Virus record (IMG/VR): IMGVR_UViG_3300020125_000051
Span: 17,008-81,007 of that record
DNA: 64,000 bases
Strand: one strand, 5' to 3'
From: a virus
The first letter of the stretch is position 1; every line of letters begins with the position of its first letter. The position numbers were made by a program, and so were the translations under genes. Below, piece after piece: positions 3,892 through 58,487 of this stretch. Under the pieces are notes generated by a model. It saw nothing but the letters and a program-made list of their open reading frames with translations, made no database searches and had not been told where the DNA came from.

Positions 3892-5458
3892 TAATTCGGA
3901 ATATCTATCCATAATTGCTGAGTTAGAACAGAATGCTGAGACTCGAGAAATTGCAAATACTGCACAATTAACCAAACAAATTACTCTTAACGAAGCGTTG
4001 AATAGTTATGATTTAGTTAAGGCCGTGCATGATCCAGTTAATGGATCTTATGTAGTGATGGCCGAGCGTAACCCTAAATTAGACATAAATACGGCATTCA
4101 AGGAAATGGGTTACGTATCTCCATCTCCATTTACTTCTTGGACTCGTGACGAGCGTGTTCCGGAACTTAGAGATCAAACAGGTATTCGTACTTACTATAA
4201 CATGAAGCGAGCCGACGGCATTATTCGTGGCGCGTTAAGATTACTTAAGACTCCTGTTATGGCAGCTAGATGGTTCATTGAACCAGCTAGTGATAGTACC
4301 TTAGACAAAAGCATTGCGGATTTCGTAGAACGAAACCTGTTTGAAGAGTTAAATGCACCTTGGTATCGTGTTCTTGAAGATGCGCTATTAATGTGTGAAT
4401 ATGGTTACATGCCGTTAGAAAAGGTATATGGACTAAACTCTGATGGTAAAATTGTACTAAAGAAACTAGCTCCACGACACCCACTTGATATTATGCAATG
4501 GGAATATGACACAACAGGTGGGCCAAATGGTATCGTTATGGAACCTACCCAGGCGAACAACTTTGAGTCTATTTTTGTTCCTATTGAGAAGCTAGTTGTC
4601 TTTGTATTAGAGCAAGAAGCTGGTGACATGCGTGGAATTTCAATTCTACGATCTGCCTACAAGCATTACTACTACAAAGATACACTCTACAAAATTGATG
4701 CTATCCAAAAGGAAAGACACGGAATTGGTGTTCCAATCATCAAAATCCCGCTTGGTGCCTCTGATAAGGACCGAGCACTTGCTGATGATTTGGGAAGAAA
4801 CTTGCGTACCAATGAGCGTGCCCACATATCTTTGCCAATGAACTGGGAAGTGATGTTTGCTAAGTTAGAAGGTCAGCCAGTCGACTGCTTACCTTCAATA
4901 GCACATCACAATGATCAGATTATGCAAAATATTTTAGCAAACTTCTACAAAGATCCAAGTGCTAAAGAAGATTCAATGAACATGTTCTACAAGGGAACTC
5001 GTTACATTGCATCTACTCTAGCTGAAACTTTTAATCGTCATGTCATCAAACAACTTGTAGATTTCAATTACAATCGAGGAAAATACCCAATTCTTCGTGT
5101 TCGTAGAATTGGTGAGAACGAAGACCTACGTACATGGTCGTTTGCATTCCGTAACCTAGTTGGCGCTAACGCAATCTTCCCTGATGATCCACTAGAGGAC
5201 TTCTTAAGAACAGAACTCGACCTACCACCAGCCGACAAGAAAACAGCACGTACGCCATTTGATCCTAGACAGCAACGTGCACAAGAACCTGGTCCTCCTG
5301 GTACTGTTGGTAGTCTTCCAACTCAAACATCACCTGGAAATACAACGAATCCAGCAAATAACACTGGATTACCTCATGTTGGTTTGCCTAGACAAAAGGC
5401 ACAACCACCAGTTAAACCTCCACAGAAAAACGCTGGATCTGATAGATCAGGAGGATAG
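3884..5458 (+). CDS. Portal protein (DUF935/Mu gp29-like)
   Basis: 524 aa. It forms the dodecameric portal at one capsid vertex, the channel for DNA and the terminase dock. Typical portal-core text is seen at GIIRGALRLLKTPVMAARW (about residue 109), followed by an ALLMCEYGYMPLEKVY stretch and the clip/stem region. The last about 70 residues are a Pro/Gln/Asn-rich tail. It follows terminase and precedes the minor head and protease genes, the normal order. Confidence 0.88.
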   Translation: MSDNSEYLSIIAELEQNAETREIANTAQLTKQITLNEALNSYDLVKAVHDPVNGSYVVMAERNPKLDINTAFKEMGYVSPSPFTSWTRDERVPELRDQTGIRTYYNMKRADGIIRGALRLLKTPVMAARWFIEPASDSTLDKSIADFVERNLFEELNAPWYRVLEDALLMCEYGYMPLEKVYGLNSDGKIVLKKLAPRHPLDIMQWEYDTTGGPNGIVMEPTQANNFESIFVPIEKLVVFVLEQEAGDMRGISILRSAYKHYYYKDTLYKIDAIQKERHGIGVPIIKIPLGASDKDRALADDLGRNLRTNERAHISLPMNWEVMFAKLEGQPVDCLPSIAHHNDQIMQNILANFYKDPSAKEDSMNMFYKGTRYIASTLAETFNRHVIKQLVDFNYNRGKYPILRVRRIGENEDLRTWSFAFRNLVGANAIFPDDPLEDFLRTELDLPPADKKTARTPFDPRQQRAQEPGPPGTVGSLPTQTSPGNTTNPANNTGLPHVGLPRQKAQPPVKPPQKNAGSDRSGG

Positions 5459-7334: not shown

Positions 7335-8315
7335 ATGGCAGTTTACAATCCAACTGGATCTGGCAACGTTCACGTTGATAAGATTCTTACCCAGATCAGT
7401 GTGGCTTGGCCAAACACAGGTTTAGTTGGCGAACGCCTAATGCCAAGTGTTGGAGTACTTAAGCAGTCTGATAAGTACTACATCTTTGGACGTGAAGGTT
7501 GGCTTCCAGAAGATGACAACCGTGCACCTGGCACAGTAGCCAATGAGATCGCCGGTCTTGCCGTGTCTACGGACACATACTACGCCCGTGAACACTCTCT
7601 TCAGATCCCGGTAACTGACGAAGAGCGTGATAACGTTGACTCACCACTAGCACCAGATCGTGACGCGACCGAACTAGTTACGTCTAAGATTATGCTAGGC
7701 CGTGAAGTTGCTATTAAGACGCTAGTTACCACTACTTCTAACTATGCATCAGGTTTGAGCACAACTCTTTCTGGTGCTGCACAGTGGAACTCTGCTAACT
7801 ATGCAACTTCCGACCCTATCTCGGACCTTCGCACTGGCAAGGTTGCGGTTAACGCCCGTATCTTCCAGGACCCGAATGTTCTAGTGGTTCCTTATCAGGT
7901 TATGGCTGCGCTGGAAGACCACCCAGACTTCCTAGAGCGTATTAAGTACTCTGAGCGGGCTATCTTCTCGCCTGAGCTTCTTGCAGCAGTTCTTGGTTTC
8001 GAGACTGTTGTTGTGCCTGGTGTTGGTATCAACAATGCTAACCCTGGTGCTTCCGCCTCACTTGGTTACCTGTGGGGTAAGGATGTTGTTATGGCGTGGG
8101 TGCCTCCGCGCGCAGGTCTTAAGATTCCTGCCTTTGGTTATGAATTCACTTGGGGAACACAGTACGTAGATCGTTGGCGTGAGGAACCACGGAAGTCTGA
8201 TCTAATCCGTGCATCTCGTCGCTATGACCTTAAACTGGTTGCTCAGGGTGACCCAGGTTCTTCGGACGCTGGTAAAGCAATTGCCGGATATGTCATCAAG
8301 GCCGCGATTGCCTAG
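7335..8315 (+). CDS. Major capsid protein
   Basis: 326 aa behind a good GGAGGGAAA site. Residues such as VGERLMPSVGVLKQSDKYY, IPVTDEERDN and FQDPNVLVVPYQVMAAL match the phage major-head family. The typical C-terminal ending is DLIRASRRYDLKLVAQ. Codons are biased to C/G-ending choices compared with neighbours, as expected for the most highly expressed virion protein. No cleaved delta domain is obvious. Confidence 0.87.
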   Translation: MAVYNPTGSGNVHVDKILTQISVAWPNTGLVGERLMPSVGVLKQSDKYYIFGREGWLPEDDNRAPGTVANEIAGLAVSTDTYYAREHSLQIPVTDEERDNVDSPLAPDRDATELVTSKIMLGREVAIKTLVTTTSNYASGLSTTLSGAAQWNSANYATSDPISDLRTGKVAVNARIFQDPNVLVVPYQVMAALEDHPDFLERIKYSERAIFSPELLAAVLGFETVVVPGVGINNANPGASASLGYLWGKDVVMAWVPPRAGLKIPAFGYEFTWGTQYVDRWREEPRKSDLIRASRRYDLKLVAQGDPGSSDAGKAIAGYVIKAAIA

Positions 8316-8323
8316 GAGCGATT

Positions 8324-8623
8324 ATGCCTAAGAAAATCTTCGCTGTTACTAATGTACGAGTTGGCCCAGCAGACGACCAATACTTTGCAGCTAATAGTGT
8401 GATTGATCCAGCTAAATTTACTAAAGAGCAATTACTACAGCTGCATGAGTCTGGTGCTATTGAAATTCGTGTTGTGGATGAAGAAGTTGCTCCTGACGGT
8501 ACTGCGGTAACCGACGTAGTTCCTGAATCTACAGAAACAACAGATGCATCCACTTCTACAGAGTCTACAGAGTCAACAGACACAACCGCTTCTATGGATT
8601 CTACGGACGATACAGATAGCTAA
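8324..8623 (+). CDS. Head-associated protein with Ser/Thr/Asp/Glu-rich tail
   Basis: 99 aa. The first 65 residues are a compact domain (KKIFAVTNVRVGPADDQYF). The rest is a low-complexity acidic tail built from ST, TE and STD repeats. It lies directly after the capsid gene and is coupled to the connector gene (TAATG). Probably a capsid accessory protein. Confidence 0.65.
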   Translation: MPKKIFAVTNVRVGPADDQYFAANSVIDPAKFTKEQLLQLHESGAIEIRVVDEEVAPDGTAVTDVVPESTETTDASTSTESTESTDTTASMDSTDDTDS

Positions 8624-9069
8624 TGGCTAGAATACAGAAAGAAGATGCGCAAGGGTGGGTAGAGTCAACTAAGTTGCCTCTATCCTCCCTTGACATTGCC
8701 TTATTAACTCAAATCGAAGGCGAAGTATTAGCAAGATTAGCCACAGCTTATGATACATCAACTTGGCTTGATCAAACTTCTACTCCGCTGGTTGTTCGAG
8801 TCATTATTGCAAAAACATATGTGGCTTGGATTTACGATAGACAGTATAGTGAGAACCAAACTGGTGGAAATGATTACGCAGCTATGTTGCGTACAAATGC
8901 TGAAATGTTAATAGTTGGCTTAGTTAATGGTACAATTGATATTCCAGGTGTTAATCCAACAGGTTCTATTCCAAGCTTCTATCCAAATGATGCATCTTCT
9001 GCACAAGATCCGACACCAGATGATACATCATTAGGACCTGCTGCATTCTCTATGGGAAAAGTATTCTGA
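8623..9069 (+). CDS. Head-tail connector (adaptor)
   Basis: 148 aa, helical. Its pattern (SSLDIALLTQIEGEVLARLATAYDT...VRVIIAKTYVAWIYDRQYSE) fits gp6/gp36-type connector proteins that attach below the portal. It is positioned between capsid and morphogenesis genes. Confidence 0.65.
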   Translation: MARIQKEDAQGWVESTKLPLSSLDIALLTQIEGEVLARLATAYDTSTWLDQTSTPLVVRVIIAKTYVAWIYDRQYSENQTGGNDYAAMLRTNAEMLIVGLVNGTIDIPGVNPTGSIPSFYPNDASSAQDPTPDDTSLGPAAFSMGKVF

Positions 9070-9070
9070 T

Positions 9071-9823
9071 ATGGCGAGTAATTTCCCTAGACCCACGCCA
9101 TTCATGATTTCTGAAGCCGTAGTTCGCGGCTTAGCAATTCCTGCAATTGAAATTGATCCACGATTTAACTTTGTTCGTGGAGCTTATATATTTGCTAGTG
9201 ATATCCAATTACTAGATTTAAAGCTTAGAACATTCAAGGATCCTCTTGAAAAATCTCGAGATTTAGTGATTATTCCTGCAATTAAGCAAAATTTTGTAGA
9301 ACAGGGTCGACCACAATGGAAGCAATTATCTAAGAGAACTCTTTACAATAGACTTATTGAAGGCTATCCGCGTGGTCCAATACTTGATAAAACTGGACGA
9401 TTGAAGCGAGCTGCAACTAAGAAGAATATCTGGGCTATAACTAGTGCAATTGGCCGTCAAGGCTATGATATGTTACAGCTAAGAACAATTTATTTTGATC
9501 AATTAGTTCCATATGGTCAATTTCATCAACTTGGAGCCAGAATTCCATCTGCTAGAAATATTGGTGGTTTGTCTGGACGTTTTGGTTCTACTGGAAATCC
9601 ACTTATACCAACTAATATTAAATTCTCTAAGAGTGTAACTCCAGGTGGATTTGTAGAGCATGGACGTGTTGAATTATTCCCAACTAGTGGTGGTAAGCTT
9701 CCTGCACGCCCATTCATAGCTATAACATTACAAGATGAAGTTGAAATCTACAACCTATTTACTACACACTTAACTACTCAGGTCAATAAATTCTGGGGCA
9801 TGAAGGGTGACAAGGGACTATGA
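9071..9823 (+). CDS. Neck/virion morphogenesis protein (Mu gpG-like)
   Basis: 250 aa. The motif EQGRPQWKQLSKRTLYNR, followed by ILDKTGRLKRA and a late GKLPARPFIAIT, is characteristic of the Mu virion-morphogenesis/tail-completion family. It joins head to tail. Its stop overlaps the next start (ATGA). Confidence 0.75.
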   Translation: MASNFPRPTPFMISEAVVRGLAIPAIEIDPRFNFVRGAYIFASDIQLLDLKLRTFKDPLEKSRDLVIIPAIKQNFVEQGRPQWKQLSKRTLYNRLIEGYPRGPILDKTGRLKRAATKKNIWAITSAIGRQGYDMLQLRTIYFDQLVPYGQFHQLGARIPSARNIGGLSGRFGSTGNPLIPTNIKFSKSVTPGGFVEHGRVELFPTSGGKLPARPFIAITLQDEVEIYNLFTTHLTTQVNKFWGMKGDKGL

Positions 9824-10290
9824 CCGCACCTGGACCACACACTGACACAGACGAAACTGTTGCTGAAGCTATTTTTAATCTTGTTTTTGATGATAAAGAA
9901 GATTTGGAATTAGAAGACGTATTATATGGAAATCATATAATAATTCCTCGTAATAGTGCCGCTGTTATCCAAGCTATGGGTAAAAACAGAGCTTTAGCTG
10001 GTGTCGCTGCACCAGGTGGTAGAACATTAAATACCTTAATGGTTATGATTGATCTTCACTGGTCAAAAGTTGGCGATGAATCTACGCAACGTAGATTATG
10101 CGATGCCAGAGGCACTGCGTTAGAACGTAAAATTCATGAAGATACTACCCTTGGCGGAATTGTAATTCATGGTTTCGTTAATCAGGTTGATCGTGGCGAA
10201 ACTTTATTCAATGGTAGTATGTTCAGAACAGTAAGAATGTCTTACGCTGCTACTACTAAGACATACTTATCTCCTCCTGCTGCACCGTAA
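9820..10290 (+). CDS. Tail terminator/completion protein candidate
   Basis: 156 aa, alpha/beta mix, occupying the usual tail-terminator slot between neck protein and tail tube. NTLMVMIDLHWSKVGDESTQRR is the most distinctive stretch. Assignment rests on synteny and size. Confidence 0.6.
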   Translation: MTAPGPHTDTDETVAEAIFNLVFDDKEDLELEDVLYGNHIIIPRNSAAVIQAMGKNRALAGVAAPGGRTLNTLMVMIDLHWSKVGDESTQRRLCDARGTALERKIHEDTTLGGIVIHGFVNQVDRGETLFNGSMFRTVRMSYAATTKTYLSPPAAP

Positions 10291-10300
10291 AGGGGGCGCC

Positions 10301-10498
10301 ATGCACTTCGAAATAGAATCAGACAGAGAAATTTCTGTCCTTGGTGTTGGTATTTTAACACCTGGCGAGCCTCATCGGTTGACAGATGAGGAGCGCCAGA
10401 TGTTCAAAATTTACTATGGCCAAGATGTAATTGGTGCAAACTTTGCACCATATGTGAAAGTAACCGCAGTTGTTGAAAGTGCCGAGGGAGGTGAATAA
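10301..10498 (+). CDS. Small protein before the tail tube gene
   Basis: 65 aa, acidic, with FEIESDREISVLGVGILTPGEPHRLT. GGGGGC precedes the ATG, and the stop overlaps the ATG of the tail-tube gene (TAATG). Short connector or chaperone-like proteins occur here in siphoviruses; function not known. Confidence 0.6.
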   Translation: MHFEIESDREISVLGVGILTPGEPHRLTDEERQMFKIYYGQDVIGANFAPYVKVTAVVESAEGGE

Positions 10499-11766
10499 TG
10501 GCTAACGTTGGAATTGGTGCTGCTGGTATTGCCGGCGTAGCCGTAGAACAACTGACACCTGTAGTTGCACTTGCTGCTACTCCTGTCGCAGGTGGCGCAC
10601 TTACTGCTGGTACTTACAAATACTACATTACTGCAATTAATGCCAATGGTGAGACCACTAAGTCTAATGAGCTTACTGGTACTACTGCGGCTGGTAACTT
10701 AACGCTAACTCTAACCTGGACAGCAGTAACAGGTGCTACTGGGTATAAGATTTATCGTACTGCGGCCGCTGGTGCCACTGACTCTGAACTCTTGCTTACT
10801 ACTGTTGGAGCAGTTACCACATTCAATGATACTGCCGTTGGTGCACCTGCTGGTGCTTTCCCGACAACTAATACAGCAGTAGCACCAGGTACGTATGTTG
10901 CGCCGACTAAGTTCTTCTCATTCAACAGCGAATCAATTGCTGTAGTGGAAGAAACTGTTTTCCGCCGGCCAATCCGGTTGAGCGCGGACGTTATTAGCGC
11001 TGTTCCTGGTAACTTCCACCCTGAGGGTGAACTCAACCTTGAATCCATGGAAGATGTTATCATCTGGTTCCTGTGGGCTTCGAGAACAGCAATTGTAAAG
11101 ACTGGATCCTCACCTAACTTTACATATACTATTACTCCAACTCCAGCAGCTGTGCCAAATAAAACGCTATCTCTAACGATTGTTAGAAATGGTGTTGTGT
11201 TCGGTTACACTGGAGTTTGTTTAAATAACTTCAAGTTTGGTGTTGACAACGGACTTATGACGTTCAGTACCTCTGTTATTGGACGTGATGAAGCTGTTCA
11301 GTCTCTTCCTGTGCCAACATTCTCAACAGTTCTACCATTCGGTGCAGGTACATATTCTATCGAAATTCCAACAGCTTCGCCAGTGCTTGACACTGACACA
11401 TTCGAATTCTCGGTAGAAGATAACGCTGAAGCTCAATTCAGACTTAAGAACACTGGCCGTGGTGCACAGTTTATTAAGTATGGCGAGCGCAGTTCAACCA
11501 CCACAGTTGAACGTGACTTCGTTGATCGCACTGATTACGATGCGTTCAAAGCTATTACAGCGCAGTCTGTTACAATTACAGCCTCTAAGGGTTCTAACAA
11601 CTCAATTAGCATTCTTGCGCCTGTCTCCATTAAAGATACCTACACTGTGGGCTTGAGTGGTGAAGGTGATTTAGTTCGTGCTTCTATTGCTTACCAGAAC
11701 ATCATTGATGGTACTGGAAAGTCTTGGCAAATTGTAGTTAAGACACAAGAGGACATCATTCCATAG
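10498..11766 (+). CDS. Major tail tube protein with inserted Ig/FN3-like domain
   Basis: 422 aa. An N-terminal tube segment is interrupted at about residues 20-130 by a beta module (LTAGTYKYYITAINANGETT...ATGYKIYRT). The tube fold resumes with FRRPIRLSADVIS and ends with VGLSGEGDLVRASIAYQNII. Ig-like insertions in tube proteins decorate the tail outside. The gene precedes the frameshifted chaperones, as expected. The domain is similar to the one in the protein at 118-621. Confidence 0.8.
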   Translation: MANVGIGAAGIAGVAVEQLTPVVALAATPVAGGALTAGTYKYYITAINANGETTKSNELTGTTAAGNLTLTLTWTAVTGATGYKIYRTAAAGATDSELLLTTVGAVTTFNDTAVGAPAGAFPTTNTAVAPGTYVAPTKFFSFNSESIAVVEETVFRRPIRLSADVISAVPGNFHPEGELNLESMEDVIIWFLWASRTAIVKTGSSPNFTYTITPTPAAVPNKTLSLTIVRNGVVFGYTGVCLNNFKFGVDNGLMTFSTSVIGRDEAVQSLPVPTFSTVLPFGAGTYSIEIPTASPVLDTDTFEFSVEDNAEAQFRLKNTGRGAQFIKYGERSSTTTVERDFVDRTDYDAFKAITAQSVTITASKGSNNSISILAPVSIKDTYTVGLSGEGDLVRASIAYQNIIDGTGKSWQIVVKTQEDIIP

Positions 11767-11775
11767 TGAGTAGAC

Positions 11776-12309
11776 ATGAATCCAATTTTATTTTGGATTT
11801 TATTTTCAATTGCATATTGGGCTCTAGCATTTTTACTAATCAAAAAGAAGATTAAATTCAACTTGGTATTTCCAAGTGCTAAGGAAATGTTTCAGTTATC
11901 TAAGGAGATTAAGGCAATGCCTGTTGGTGTAGTGCTTATTAGTACAAATAAGGTTGAGTTAACTCTATTGCCGGGTGGATACGTAACTGTTCGTCGAATG
12001 AATTACGGTGAAGAGTTAGATCGTACTGGCTTGGCAACAAAGTTTAAGATGGGGTCTACTAAAACCGAAAATGCCAAAGATTCGTTTGCTGGCGAACTAG
12101 ATATTAACACCAAGGAAATTGCTCTATGGGATTTCGCTAATTTAATTGTTGACCACAATATTACAGACGAAAACGAAAGACTATTGAATTTCAAAAACCC
12201 TGCGGACGTAGCTAGACTTCATCCTTTAGTAGGTAAAGAAATTGGTGAAGCAATTGATGCTTGGCAGTCTCAGGCATTAGAAACGAGTGATGAAGTAAAA
12301 AACTCTTAA
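11776..12309 (+). CDS. Tail assembly chaperone, short form (G-like)
   Basis: 177 aa. A hydrophobic N-terminal helix (FWILFSIAYWALAFLLI) precedes the chaperone-like domain (GGYVTVRRMNYGEELDR). It lies between tail tube and tape measure, the invariant place for lambda G homologues. The last codons GTA AAA AAC contain a slippery heptamer that allows a minority of ribosomes to continue into the next frame. Confidence 0.78.
   Translation: MNPILFWILFSIAYWALAFLLIKKKIKFNLVFPSAKEMFQLSKEIKAMPVGVVLISTNKVELTLLPGGYVTVRRMNYGEELDRTGLATKFKMGSTKTENAKDSFAGELDINTKEIALWDFANLIVDHNITDENERLLNFKNPADVARLHPLVGKEIGEAIDAWQSQALETSDEVKNS
12297..12303 (+). promoter_or_regulatory. Programmed -1 frameshift site
   Basis: The heptamer A AAA AAC lies in frame of the short chaperone (codons GTA AAA AAC), two codons before its stop. 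A -1 slip leads into CTC TTA ATT GAG CTA and stays open to 12539. The X XXY YYZ form and the genomic position match tail-chaperone frameshifting (lambda G/GT). Confidence 0.85.
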
Positions 12310-53230: not shown

Positions 53231-54820
53231 TTAGATTCTACCTGCGCTAAACGCAGAAACCAATTTAGGCAAGTTTGAATCTGCGCCCGCTACGTCTAGC
53301 ATACCACTATCTGTGGGATTTGCAATAGAAAATCGCGTTGGAGTACATGCAACAACAATCAACTTTGCGTCATGACCTATAAACCTGCGATAATCCTTCA
53401 ATGCAACATGAGGATGTACATTACCAGCCCATGTTTCACTATCAGTCATTACCACAAAGGTATCAACGTCGATGCCACGTTCCTTGGCATATACCATTGG
53501 CAGTGAACAATCTGTACTACCAAAATTGCGATCCTTAGTTCTTTGCATTACTTCAGCTAGTGACATATTAGGTGCTATTCCCAAATCAACAAAATTCTGG
53601 GAGAATCCCATGATTTGGTAGAATGGCTCAGTTCTGGCAATCGTCATTGACATAGCTGCGCAAACTTCGGCAGCAGTTAAGTCAATGCCAGCCATCGACT
53701 GAGACATAGAACCAGAAACATCAAGAGCTATCATGGTACGCTTGTTAGCTGGTTCTACGTACTTAAAGGCACGATAGAAACCATCATCAAGTGCATTTAC
53801 GATAACAGGATTAGTTGCCCAATTCTTTTCATAGGTGTGACTCCATGCGTACTTACGATCACGCTGACCACGCTGATGCACAGTAGATGCTAGCAAATAC
53901 TGGAAAGGATGCAAGCGCGTACGCTGAATCATTTCCTCATCTACAAGCTTATCTGCATATGCACGAGCAAAGTGCATGTCCTCGAAAGCACCAATACGAG
54001 CAAGTCTAGTGATATTACGTACTAGAGCCTGACCGTTAAGCTGTCCATTACCGAAAAGCATCTTCCATACATCAGGAACCTTTAGGAATTGAGTAGGAAT
54101 GGCTTCCCAGGGAAGATTTGGATAACGCTCTAGTGCTGAAAGCACATGTCCTATCATGGTAGATGCTTGCATCCGCTTGAATCCAGCAATTATCAGCGGA
54201 TCTACATTAACTTCATTATCAAAGCCATGCACGAAATCGCCAATTGCCTTATTCAATCCCACAGGATGTGAAAGCATGAGCAAACCCTTGTGGGTCCAGC
54301 CGTTCCGTTGACGGTACTTTACCACCTGATACGCAAGGCTGTCAACATCCTTGCTAATGTACCAATCGGCAATCGCGCGCCGCTTTGCTCGTCCCCAACC
54401 ACCTAGAAGTTTGATATATTCAGCAAACTCGAATAGATGAGTTGACGTGCGACACACCTTAGCTAAGTCCTGCGAAGATTTTGCCTTGCCAAAGGTAAAC
54501 AGCGCGGCCAAACAAAAAATTGCAGGACTATTGCGGAAAGCACGGCCAGACTGTGAGATTTCAACTACAGTATCACGAACTAACTGCTCATCACGCTCAA
54601 TTAGTTCGCGTAGAAAGTTGATGTTATCCTTAGTAAGCTTCTGCTCGTCAACATAGTATGTTCCACCTTCGGTACCCAAAATAAGAAAACGCTCTAGGCG
54701 AGTCTTATCTGTTACCTCAAACGTAAAACCACCAGCATTGTTAGCAACCTGCCGAGGATCTTCTTGCTCTGACTGTGGTATTGGTGTTCCTAGTGTTCTT
54801 GAAAATACGTTGTTTGCCAT
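53231..54820 (-). CDS. rsr: Ro60/TROVE-domain RNA-binding protein (Rsr)
   Basis: 529 aa. Residues about 25-340 form the helical-repeat TROVE ring: FLILGTEGGTYYVDEQKLTKDN, IFCLAALFTFGKA, and LLMLSHPVGLNKAIGDFVHGFDNE. The vWA domain follows with the MIDAS motif ALDVSGSMSQS at about residue 365, with VVMTDSETW near the end. Ro holds misfolded RNA ends and Y RNAs; in bacteria it tethers PNPase. Two tRNA-like genes, a Y-like RNA and seven more such RNAs lie upstream. Its own leader (54828-54850) has Y-like sequence. Tandem hairpins follow the stop. Confidence 0.93.
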   Translation of the reverse strand: MANNVFSRTLGTPIPQSEQEDPRQVANNAGGFTFEVTDKTRLERFLILGTEGGTYYVDEQKLTKDNINFLRELIERDEQLVRDTVVEISQSGRAFRNSPAIFCLAALFTFGKAKSSQDLAKVCRTSTHLFEFAEYIKLLGGWGRAKRRAIADWYISKDVDSLAYQVVKYRQRNGWTHKGLLMLSHPVGLNKAIGDFVHGFDNEVNVDPLIIAGFKRMQASTMIGHVLSALERYPNLPWEAIPTQFLKVPDVWKMLFGNGQLNGQALVRNITRLARIGAFEDMHFARAYADKLVDEEMIQRTRLHPFQYLLASTVHQRGQRDRKYAWSHTYEKNWATNPVIVNALDDGFYRAFKYVEPANKRTMIALDVSGSMSQSMAGIDLTAAEVCAAMSMTIARTEPFYQIMGFSQNFVDLGIAPNMSLAEVMQRTKDRNFGSTDCSLPMVYAKERGIDVDTFVVMTDSETWAGNVHPHVALKDYRRFIGHDAKLIVVACTPTRFSIANPTDSGMLDVAGADSNLPKLVSAFSAGRI

Positions 54821-54827
54821 TTTTGAA

Positions 54828-54850
54828 CGACCCCTTTCAAGGGATATATT
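54828..54850 (-). promoter_or_regulatory. Y-RNA-like element in the Ro 5' leader
   Basis: The leader contains AATATATCCC-TTGA-AAGGGGTCG. It joins the two strands of the conserved Y internal loop (TATATCC and GGGTCG) across a CCC/GGG hairpin that also holds the AAAGGGG ribosome-binding site. Ro could bind it to repress its own translation. This is inference; no second copy exists elsewhere in the leader. Confidence 0.4.
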
Positions 54851-54863
54851 GTGTTACATTACG

Positions 54864-54932
54864 TGGCATGGGTAGGATTCGAACCTACTTCCCTAGGACT
54901 GCGTAGCTTTTCCAATTAAGCCAATCCATGCC
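54864..54932 (-). tRNA. tRNA-like element, anticodon arm not formed
   Basis: Acceptor GGCATGG/CCATGCC and T arm GTAGG-TTCGAAT-CCTAC are perfect; total length is only 69 nt. The segment CGCAGTCCTAGGGAA does not form a 5-bp anticodon stem. It lies directly upstream of the Ro gene. Confidence 0.6.
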
Positions 54933-54935
54933 AAG

Positions 54936-55024
54936 TGGGGACACATGGAGTCGAACCATGTCAACTCAGACTGATCAATCTGAGGGCTAGTTTTGATCAG
55001 TATATACTAGCGTCCAAAGTCCCC
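54936..55024 (-). tRNA. Unusual tRNA-like RNA next to Ro
   Basis: Acceptor GGGGAC/GTCCCC (6 bp) and T arm CATGG-TTCGACT-CCATG are sound. The D arm is expanded (GCTAG with a 16-nt loop) and the anticodon arm has an 8-nt loop. The D loop ACTGATCAA is perfectly complementary to TTGATCAGT in the anticodon loop. This suggests a switch or pseudoknot rather than a normal adaptor. Confidence 0.55.
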
Positions 55025-55030
55025 TTGAAT

Positions 55031-55161
55031 GTTGGATATAGTTTGATAATCGGGGTTTTTGATAGCTCTTGGGCTCCGAATCGAACGGAGACCTTATACT
55101 TTTCAAGTATATATGCTACCTTTTACACTACCCTAGATAACCGACTATCGATCGACCCAAC
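55031..55161 (-). ncRNA. Y-like RNA 1 with embedded tRNA-Phe-like domain
   Basis: 131 nt. Outer stem GTTGG/CCAAC, conserved loop GGGTCGA opposite TATATCC, inner stem GATAGTCGG/CCGATTATC, then GGTTATC. A full tRNA-Phe-like cloverleaf lies on top. It starts 9 nt after the stop of the beta-helix gene and ends 6 nt before a tRNA-like 5' end. Confidence 0.85.
55066..55137 (-). tRNA. tRNA-Phe-like (GAA) inside Y-like RNA 1
   Basis: Acceptor TCTAGGG/CCCAAGA with one A·A mismatch, D arm with GTGT/GCAT wobbles, anticodon arm TATAC-TTGAAAA-GTATA, T arm CTCCG-TTCGATT-CGGAG. Its 5' strand overlaps the conserved Y GGTTATC. It may be a mimic, not a decoding tRNA. Confidence 0.65.
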
Positions 55162-55170
55162 AAAAATCTA

Positions 55171-56553: not shown

Positions 56554-56625
56554 ATATCGGATATATTTGCGTTAATTGGATGGTCTGCAGAAACAGTTGA
56601 TAACCAATTAGCTTTGACCCGATAT
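56554..56625 (-). ncRNA. Y-like RNA 2 (short form)
   Basis: 72 nt. Outer stem ATATCGG/CCGATAT, loop GGGTCAA opposite ATATATCC, inner stem TAATTGG/CCAATTA and GGTTATC with a small head. It starts 5 nt after the stop of the 64-aa gene and ends 5 nt before tRNA-Ser. Confidence 0.87.
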
Positions 56626-57590: not shown

Positions 57591-57764
57591 TTATATCCTA
57601 TCTCTTTGCGAAAACAGACAGGATGAGCTAGTTAGAGTTTAAAGTCTGTTTTCGCCCCTGTTTGAATATTAAATTGTATTTTAGATGCATGTTAGCTTTG
57701 TTTCACCACCCTTTTAGAGGCAAGTATACGGATCTCCCGTATCACCATACGCTAACATGCAACG

Positions 57765-57836
57765 TGCCAAGAGCAGGACTCGAACCTGCGCATCATGTTC
57801 TTCAGACATGCGCTCTGCCAACTGAGCTATCGAGGC
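57765..57836 (-). tRNA. tRNA-Phe (GAA)
   Basis: Anticodon arm CATGT-CTGAAGA-ACATG and T arm GCAGG-TTCGAGT-CCTGC are good. The acceptor GCCTCGA/TCTTGGC has two mismatches. This is the more normal of two Phe-anticodon genes. Confidence 0.83.
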
Positions 57837-57839
57837 AAT

Positions 57840-57901
57840 GATAAGGATATATTTTTGTCATCGTTATTTGCTGTGATAACCGATGAACTTTGACCCTTAT
57901 C
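57840..57901 (-). ncRNA. Y-like RNA 3 (shortest)
   Basis: 62 nt. Outer stem GATAAGG/CCTTATC, loop GGGTCAA opposite AATATATCC, inner stem CATCG/CGATG and GGTTATC capped by ACAGCAAATAA. It begins 7 nt after the stop of the gene at 57909 and ends 3 nt before tRNA-Phe. It gives the minimal Ro-binding core. Confidence 0.87.
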
Positions 57902-58413: not shown

Positions 58414-58487
58414 GGTGTATGACGGGATTTGAACCCGCGAATGACTAGAGTCACATTCTAGCTCCTGATGCCTCCGGATCATACACC
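58414..58487 (-). tRNA. tRNA-His (GTG)
   Basis: Acceptor GTGTATG/CATACAC with an extra 5' G (G-1) opposite C73, as needed by HisRS. Anticodon arm CTAGA-ATGTGAC-TCTAG, T loop TTCAAAT. A CCA is encoded after the discriminator. Confidence 0.9.

Follow-up and report, generated by a model that had tools for sequence, protein, structure and literature searches.

The Ro locus of a tRNA-rich virus and its RNA genes

The window considered here is the whole stretch of 64,000 nucleotides that was analyzed, and it belongs to the record of an 81-kb, tRNA-rich virus with a bacterial host. Among its genes is one coding for a Ro60 (Rsr) protein, which shares 50-57% identity with the Ro proteins of Stanwilliamsviridae phages of Streptomyces and 47% with that of Rhodococcus phage Trina. 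Two tRNA-like elements, A and B, lie on the minus strand directly upstream of the Ro ORF, exactly where a sequence-only reading of this DNA had placed them, and are embedded in a cluster of tRNA genes and predicted Y RNAs (Table 1), a setting that the earlier reading left unmentioned. ARAGORN recovers 29 tRNAs from the region. It misses a tRNA-His(GTG) on the minus strand (58415-58487), in which the acceptor, anticodon and T arms are good and the D arm is odd; with this gene counted, the tRNAs other than A and B cover all 20 amino acids. A second tRNA-Phe(GAA), also on the minus strand (57764-57836), has two acceptor mismatches and folds no better than its shuffled versions, unlike the tRNA-Phe that is nested in Y1.

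Table 1. Ro gene, tRNA-like elements and predicted Y RNAs in the window
Feature	Position	Strand	Remarks
Ro60 (Rsr) gene	53231..54820	-	TROVE, E=1.7e-33; vWA_Ro60, E=5e-59
Hairpin ATCCCT-TGAA-AGGGGT	54831..54846	-	covers the likely Ro Shine-Dalgarno sequence AAAGGGG (predicted fold, pair probabilities)
Element A, tRNA-like	54864..54933	-	acceptor 7-8 bp, D arm with GG, T arm; anticodon arm absent
Element B, tRNA-like	54936..55024	-	acceptor/T-arm stack, rebuilt D arm, 8-nt loop on the anticodon hairpin
Spacer between Y1 and B, 5 nt	55025..55029	-	would remain as a 3' tail on Y1 once RNase P has cut (from the spacing rule)
Y1	55030..55162	-	predicted Ro-binding module with stems of 8 bp (outer) and 9 bp (inner); lies just 5' of B
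tRNA-Phe(GAA)-like domain within Y1	55065..55137	-	55.9 bits to RF00005; arms in normal tRNA order
Y2, short	56554..56625	-	5 nt before tRNA-Ser(TGA)
Y3, short	57840..57901	-	3 nt before tRNA-Phe
Y4	60291..60421	-	2 nt before tRNA-Gly(TCC)
Y5	60726..60839	-	directly 3' of tRNA-Trp; effector part with anticodon-arm-like hairpin and T arm
Y6	61098..61233	-	4 nt before tRNA-Arg(ACG); parts ordered as in YrlA (T arm, closing hairpin, D arm)
Y7, short	61566..61637	-	motif and stems

Anatomy of elements A and B

Element A runs from TGGCATGG to CCATGCCA and ends 43 nt before the ATG of Ro. Its acceptor stem of 7 bp may be extended by one additional pair, and its T arm (GTAGG-TTCGAAT-CCTAC) is as perfect as had been claimed from the sequence; there is also a D arm (GCTT-AATTGGAA-AAGC). 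The D and T arms are separated by a linker of only 17 nt, so that a 5-bp anticodon stem is impossible. Element B combines an acceptor stem, GGGGAC/GTCCCC, and a T arm of 6 bp with an arm in the D position (GCTAG..CTAGC) that carries a 16-nt loop, and with an anticodon hairpin, CTCAGA-TTGATCAG-TCTGAG, whose loop has the 8 nt noted earlier; in the minimum free energy fold the hairpin closes further, giving 8 bp around a GAUC tetraloop. As regards the parts that form the tRNA elbow, A has both the GG of the D loop and the T loop; B has the T loop and a D loop devoid of GG. Comparison with shuffled sequences gave fold z-scores of -2.2 for A and -3.9 for B. Combinations of a T arm with an acceptor stem, of the kind seen in both elements, number 33 on the minus strand and none on the plus strand, against an expectation of 0.4 per strand, and thus exceed chance.

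Several observations support the earlier view that neither element could serve as a normal adaptor. Of the canonical anticodon arm, with its 5-bp stem and 7-nt loop, A has nothing at all, and B has an 8-nt loop in addition to lacking a normal D arm. ARAGORN calls neither of them, A scores 23.7 bits against the Rfam tRNA model RF00005 (cut-off 29), and B has no match to this model at E<=1 and falls in no named Rfam family. An 8-nt anticodon loop with U33 is nevertheless the size seen in +1 suppressor tRNAs, and the loop of B does have U33. One might hence conceive of B (or A) as a working, if odd, adaptor, with the B loop UU-GAUC-AG reading, for example, a four-base codon. We consider this very unlikely in light of the missing D arm with GG, the 7-nt linker between the acceptor and D positions, the 16-nt loop that follows it, the silence of both ARAGORN and Rfam, and the want of any anticodon arm in A.

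The complementarity that had been noticed between the two loops of B is real: ACTGATCAA (55001-54993), in the loop of the D position, matches TTGATCAGT (54978-54970), at the anticodon loop, over all 9 nt. On this basis B had been suggested to switch between its tRNA-like fold and one held together by the ACTGATCAA-TTGATCAGT pairing. The final T of TTGATCAGT belongs to the stem, however, and the complementary core, TGATCA, is a palindrome, two copies of which are always complementary; furthermore, a loop of 8 nt is too small for 9 loop-loop pairs. When the 9-bp helix was forced, the fold lost 6.1 kcal/mol (-27.3 versus -33.4), and a switch of this type appears scarcely credible. Homodimer energies of A and B were set aside, because hairpins generally gain in such a comparison.

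Seven predicted Y RNAs adjoin the tRNA-like elements

The neighborhood of A and B is marked by a recurrent module with the layout outer stem-GGGTCGA...inner stem-GGTTATC ... CCGAT...TATATCC, at least seven copies of which are interleaved with the tRNAs of the cluster. The signature GGTC(A/G)A-N5-9-GGTTATC has seven matches in the window, all on the minus strand and hence in the orientation of Ro, where 0.017 would be expected by chance. Such an arrangement is that of Y RNAs, and the motif is similar to the site at which animal Y RNAs bind Ro. The outer and inner stems of each module are beaten by 0 to 2 of 200 shuffled sequences, and on the 3' side TAT-ATCC is conserved (once as TAT-ATCT), with TATATCC forming the end of six of the seven. 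Judged from these sequence features, Y1-Y7, which adjoin A and B, are likely ligands of the Ro protein.

In modules that combine a T arm with a D-arm motif, the T arm comes first as a rule, which is the order of YrlA RNAs; Y1 departs from it with its arms in normal tRNA order. From the positions of the matches, two further apparent exceptions are short D-motif matches that are not D-arm-like. Y6 scores 24.6 bits against the YrlA family RF02553, below the cut-off of 69, and Y2 gives 28.5 bits, also under the cut-off, with a nematode sRNA family that is presumably that of the stem-bulge RNAs (sbRNAs). The stretch at about 61690-61800, likewise on the minus strand, shows after AGTCGAATTGAATCGATTATC a T arm (ACAGG-TTCGAAT-CCTGT, 61743-61766), then a hairpin and then a D-arm-like sequence; it may represent an eighth, degenerate Y RNA with the layout of YrlA, for which an outer stem was not found.

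The sequence-only reading had further proposed that A and B themselves are ligands of Ro or effector modules of such ligands. It was well guided in connecting the elements with Ro, and it is the seven neighbors that bear the Ro-binding motif TCGA..GGTTATC, which is lacking in A and B. A version of the proposal would have the two elements form the effector part of an unusual eighth Y RNA, or bind Ro in some other manner: TTCAAGGG (55022-55029), ahead of B, is predicted to pair perfectly with CCCTTGAA (54836-54843), as an alternative pairing of the latter, in an 8-bp stem that would enclose both A and B, and the motif with which six of the seven Y RNAs end, TATATCC, recurs at 54842-54848. The 5' half of the module with TCGA and GGTTATC, as well as the inner stem, is nonetheless absent from 54836-55029, and the enclosing stem competes with both the acceptor of B and the hairpin over the Ro Shine-Dalgarno sequence; its computed probability ranges from 0.07 to at least 0.95 depending on the stretch folded. 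We therefore regard A and B as improbable Ro ligands.

A constant gap between Y RNAs and the following tRNAs

Related phages carry the same Y RNA modules near Ro. Considering this phage together with its relatives, at least 21 of some 45 Y RNAs have a tRNA-like start 2-6 nt beyond their outer stem (mode 4), a count that is not of fully independent cases given that some of the source phages are closely related. Of random positions in these regions, 1.2% have a tRNA-like start 2-5 nt further downstream. On the other side, upstream tRNAs often finish 0-3 nt ahead of the Y RNA, so that Y RNAs are flanked by tRNAs on both sides. The simplest reason for this spacing would be that tRNA processing makes the ends of the Y RNAs. 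Several Y RNAs, among them Y5, Y7 and the Ro-adjacent one of Trina, have no tRNA behind them, which implies that other routes to a 3' end exist. In practical terms, the succession of a Y RNA, 4-5 nt and a tRNA offers a simple guide to detecting the Y RNAs of phages, which are unannotated in the genome records examined.

Between the end of Y1 (55030) and the start of B (55024) there is a gap of 5 nt, which places B in the slot usually taken by the tRNA behind a Y RNA. A comparable arrangement is found in L005, a 55-kb viral contig of a distant phage, which has no Rfam tRNA match. Here about six Y RNAs stand in a row directly before Ro (3900-4970), with the motif GAGCCGGA..GGTTATC..CTTACGCCC; one module of this contig matches YrlA RF02553 with 35.2 bits (E=1e-5), below the cut-off of 69. 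A single non-decoding tRNA-like element (4252-4321) begins exactly 4 nt past the Y RNA at 4148-4247, and has an anticodon stem of 4 bp with a 6-nt loop, a T loop of 8 nt and a fold z-score of -3.3. The slot rule and this parallel element make an assembly error an unlikely source of the defects of B.

Several other RNA genes of these phages are worth recording. In Trina, at least nine Y RNAs lie upstream of Ro (8213-11903), and a pseudogene annotated as 'tRNA-OTHER' (11634-11842) overlaps Y RNA modules. L006 has, at 2802-2875, a tRNA with the anticodon CTA, labeled tRNA-Pyl by ARAGORN and amber-suppressor-like, with similar genes in L002 and L004. Two Coruscant-type phages possess tRNA-like genes with a 6-nt anticodon loop (L011, 16000-16072, and L019, 16028-16101; 'tRNA-???' and 'tRNA-OTHER').

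Origin of A and B: decayed tRNAs or retained cleavage marks

Element A aligns with the tRNA-Asn(GTT) of Trina with a score of 67.5, where shuffled sequences reach at most 49, over the D and T arms and with a single 6-nt gap in the anticodon arm; going by this alignment, it looks like a phage tRNA-Asn from which part of the anticodon arm was deleted. For B, a search for descent from a known tRNA gave a best score of 54.5, not above that of shuffled sequences (56.5), and all that can be told of its origin from such comparisons is an acceptor 5' strand, GGGGACT, in common with the tRNA-Phe of two relatives (L002 and L003). No near relative carrying both A and B was found. The sole exact match in IMG/VR to the 20-nt anticodon hairpin of B, in L016, is a chance match within a coding gene.

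These data bear on the main rival to the explanation that we prefer, namely that A and B are phage tRNA genes which lately lost their anticodon or D arms, are functionless, and inherited their position after Y1. The one-step loss that would derive A from tRNA-Asn is in keeping with this, as are the acceptor strand of B and the fact that every amino acid is served by other tRNAs, including the tRNA-His missed by ARAGORN. Mere decay is less easily reconciled with the state of the stems, in that those retained are all nearly perfect and the decoding parts are gone in both elements. Nor has B only lost structure: it gained an arm of 5-6 bp with a 16-nt loop and a longer anticodon stem, and folds well, as its z-score indicates. 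L005, moreover, holds a second non-decoding element in the equivalent slot. Decay is a serious possibility, albeit one that we hold to be somewhat doubtful.

The arms that cleavage needs are kept in A and B, and those that decoding needs are lost. We tentatively favor, at somewhat short of an even chance, the explanation that both derive from tRNAs, have ceased to decode and would act chiefly as marks for RNase P and the 3' tRNA processing machinery, whose cuts would set free Y1 and the Ro mRNA. It is consistent with what is directly observed, namely how the elements are built, the modules of the Y RNAs, the spacing rule, and the fit of B to the slot. It also agrees with the independent parallel of the non-decoding element 4 nt after a Y RNA in L005, and with human mascRNA, which operates in this manner. 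The mechanism may be pictured as follows: 1) Y1, B, A and Ro would be part of one transcript. 2) Host RNase P would cut before G55024 of B, thereby setting the 3' end of Y1 and leaving it a short tail. 3) Since A retains the acceptor/T-arm stack and the elbow between the D and T loops, RNase P and 3' processing could cut on both of its flanks. 4) The cut 3' of A would provide the Ro mRNA with a new 5' end and a 43-nt leader. 5) This cutting would be the reason for which A and B are kept. Some features count against cleavage marks: in B the U7-U66 position is unpaired and the GG of the D loop is missing, A directly follows no Y RNA, lying instead after B, and one deletion in a working tRNA would also yield A.

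A different use for a tRNA body without its anticodon target would be that of a decoy or inhibitor of host nucleases or toxins that attack tRNAs. Phage tRNAs that evade tRNA-targeting defenses have been discussed (PMC10264068), the tRNA-like domain of YrlA was proposed to be a competitive inhibitor of an anticodon nuclease (PMC7790460), and related phages carry an RNA ligase and a polynucleotide kinase. Such a role leaves the 5-nt spacing after Y1 unexplained, and strikes us as decidedly improbable.

Extending the cleavage-mark explanation to the group, one might imagine that these phages have a Y RNA/tRNA/Ro operon in which tRNAs, along with tRNA shells stripped of decoding parts, set the ends of the Y RNA array and of the Ro mRNA, with Y1 containing a whole tRNA-Phe so that processing would choose between Y RNA and tRNA. 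This wider scheme is speculative, and we give it the lesser chance of being right. If true, it would show how phage Y RNAs acquire their ends, explain why tRNA-rich phages retain non-decoding tRNA genes, and supply a counterpart of mascRNA in the viruses of bacteria. The naming of RNA partners also makes the function of the phage Ro testable.

Comparison with known systems

The closest analogs of A and B are mascRNA and menRNA of the MALAT1 and NEAT1 transcripts, which likewise keep acceptor and T arms, have degenerate D and anticodon arms and do not decode, and which stem from the terminal part of a long RNA that owes its 3' end to RNase P (PMC11693755). In MALAT1, a single RNase P cut makes both the 3' end of MALAT1 and the 5' end of mascRNA, the anticodon arm of which has a long stem and a small loop and which is not aminoacylated (PMC11693755). 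In the manner of a mascRNA-like element, B keeps its acceptor and T arms, has lost its decoding arm and comes right after a structured RNA, 5 nt past Y1. The differences are that mascRNA and menRNA derive from human nuclear lncRNAs, whereas here we have a phage operon with a predicted Y RNA upstream, the Ro mRNA downstream, and cleavage that is predicted.

Y1-Y7, in turn, are comparable to the YrlA-class Y RNAs that accompany Rsr/Ro60, with which they share the long end-to-end stem, the Ro-type motif and the adjoining Ro gene, and Y6 matches the YrlA layout of T arm, hairpin and D arm, as that class is described in PMC8394870 and PMC12282133. A and B differ in having no Ro-binding module and in keeping the tRNA arms in normal order, and Y1 in enclosing a whole tRNA-Phe-like domain of normal order. 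Y RNAs of mycobacteriophages were already reported (PMC12282133), so that the presence of Y RNAs in phages is not itself new.

Phage Y RNAs by Ro, tRNA mimicry of the YrlA type and mascRNA-like processing are thus each known separately. In the literature consulted we found no account of tRNAs and Y RNAs packed at a constant gap, of non-decoding shells in the tRNA slot or of a normal-order tRNA within a Y RNA, part of which the key Y RNA papers may describe. A final parallel is the way in which tRNAs punctuate polycistronic transcripts, for instance those of mitochondria, where tRNAs closely bound other RNAs and their processing defines the ends of the latter. The phage arrangement would differ from it in that it is Y RNAs that would be liberated, and in that some of the punctuation marks are tRNAs no longer usable as such.
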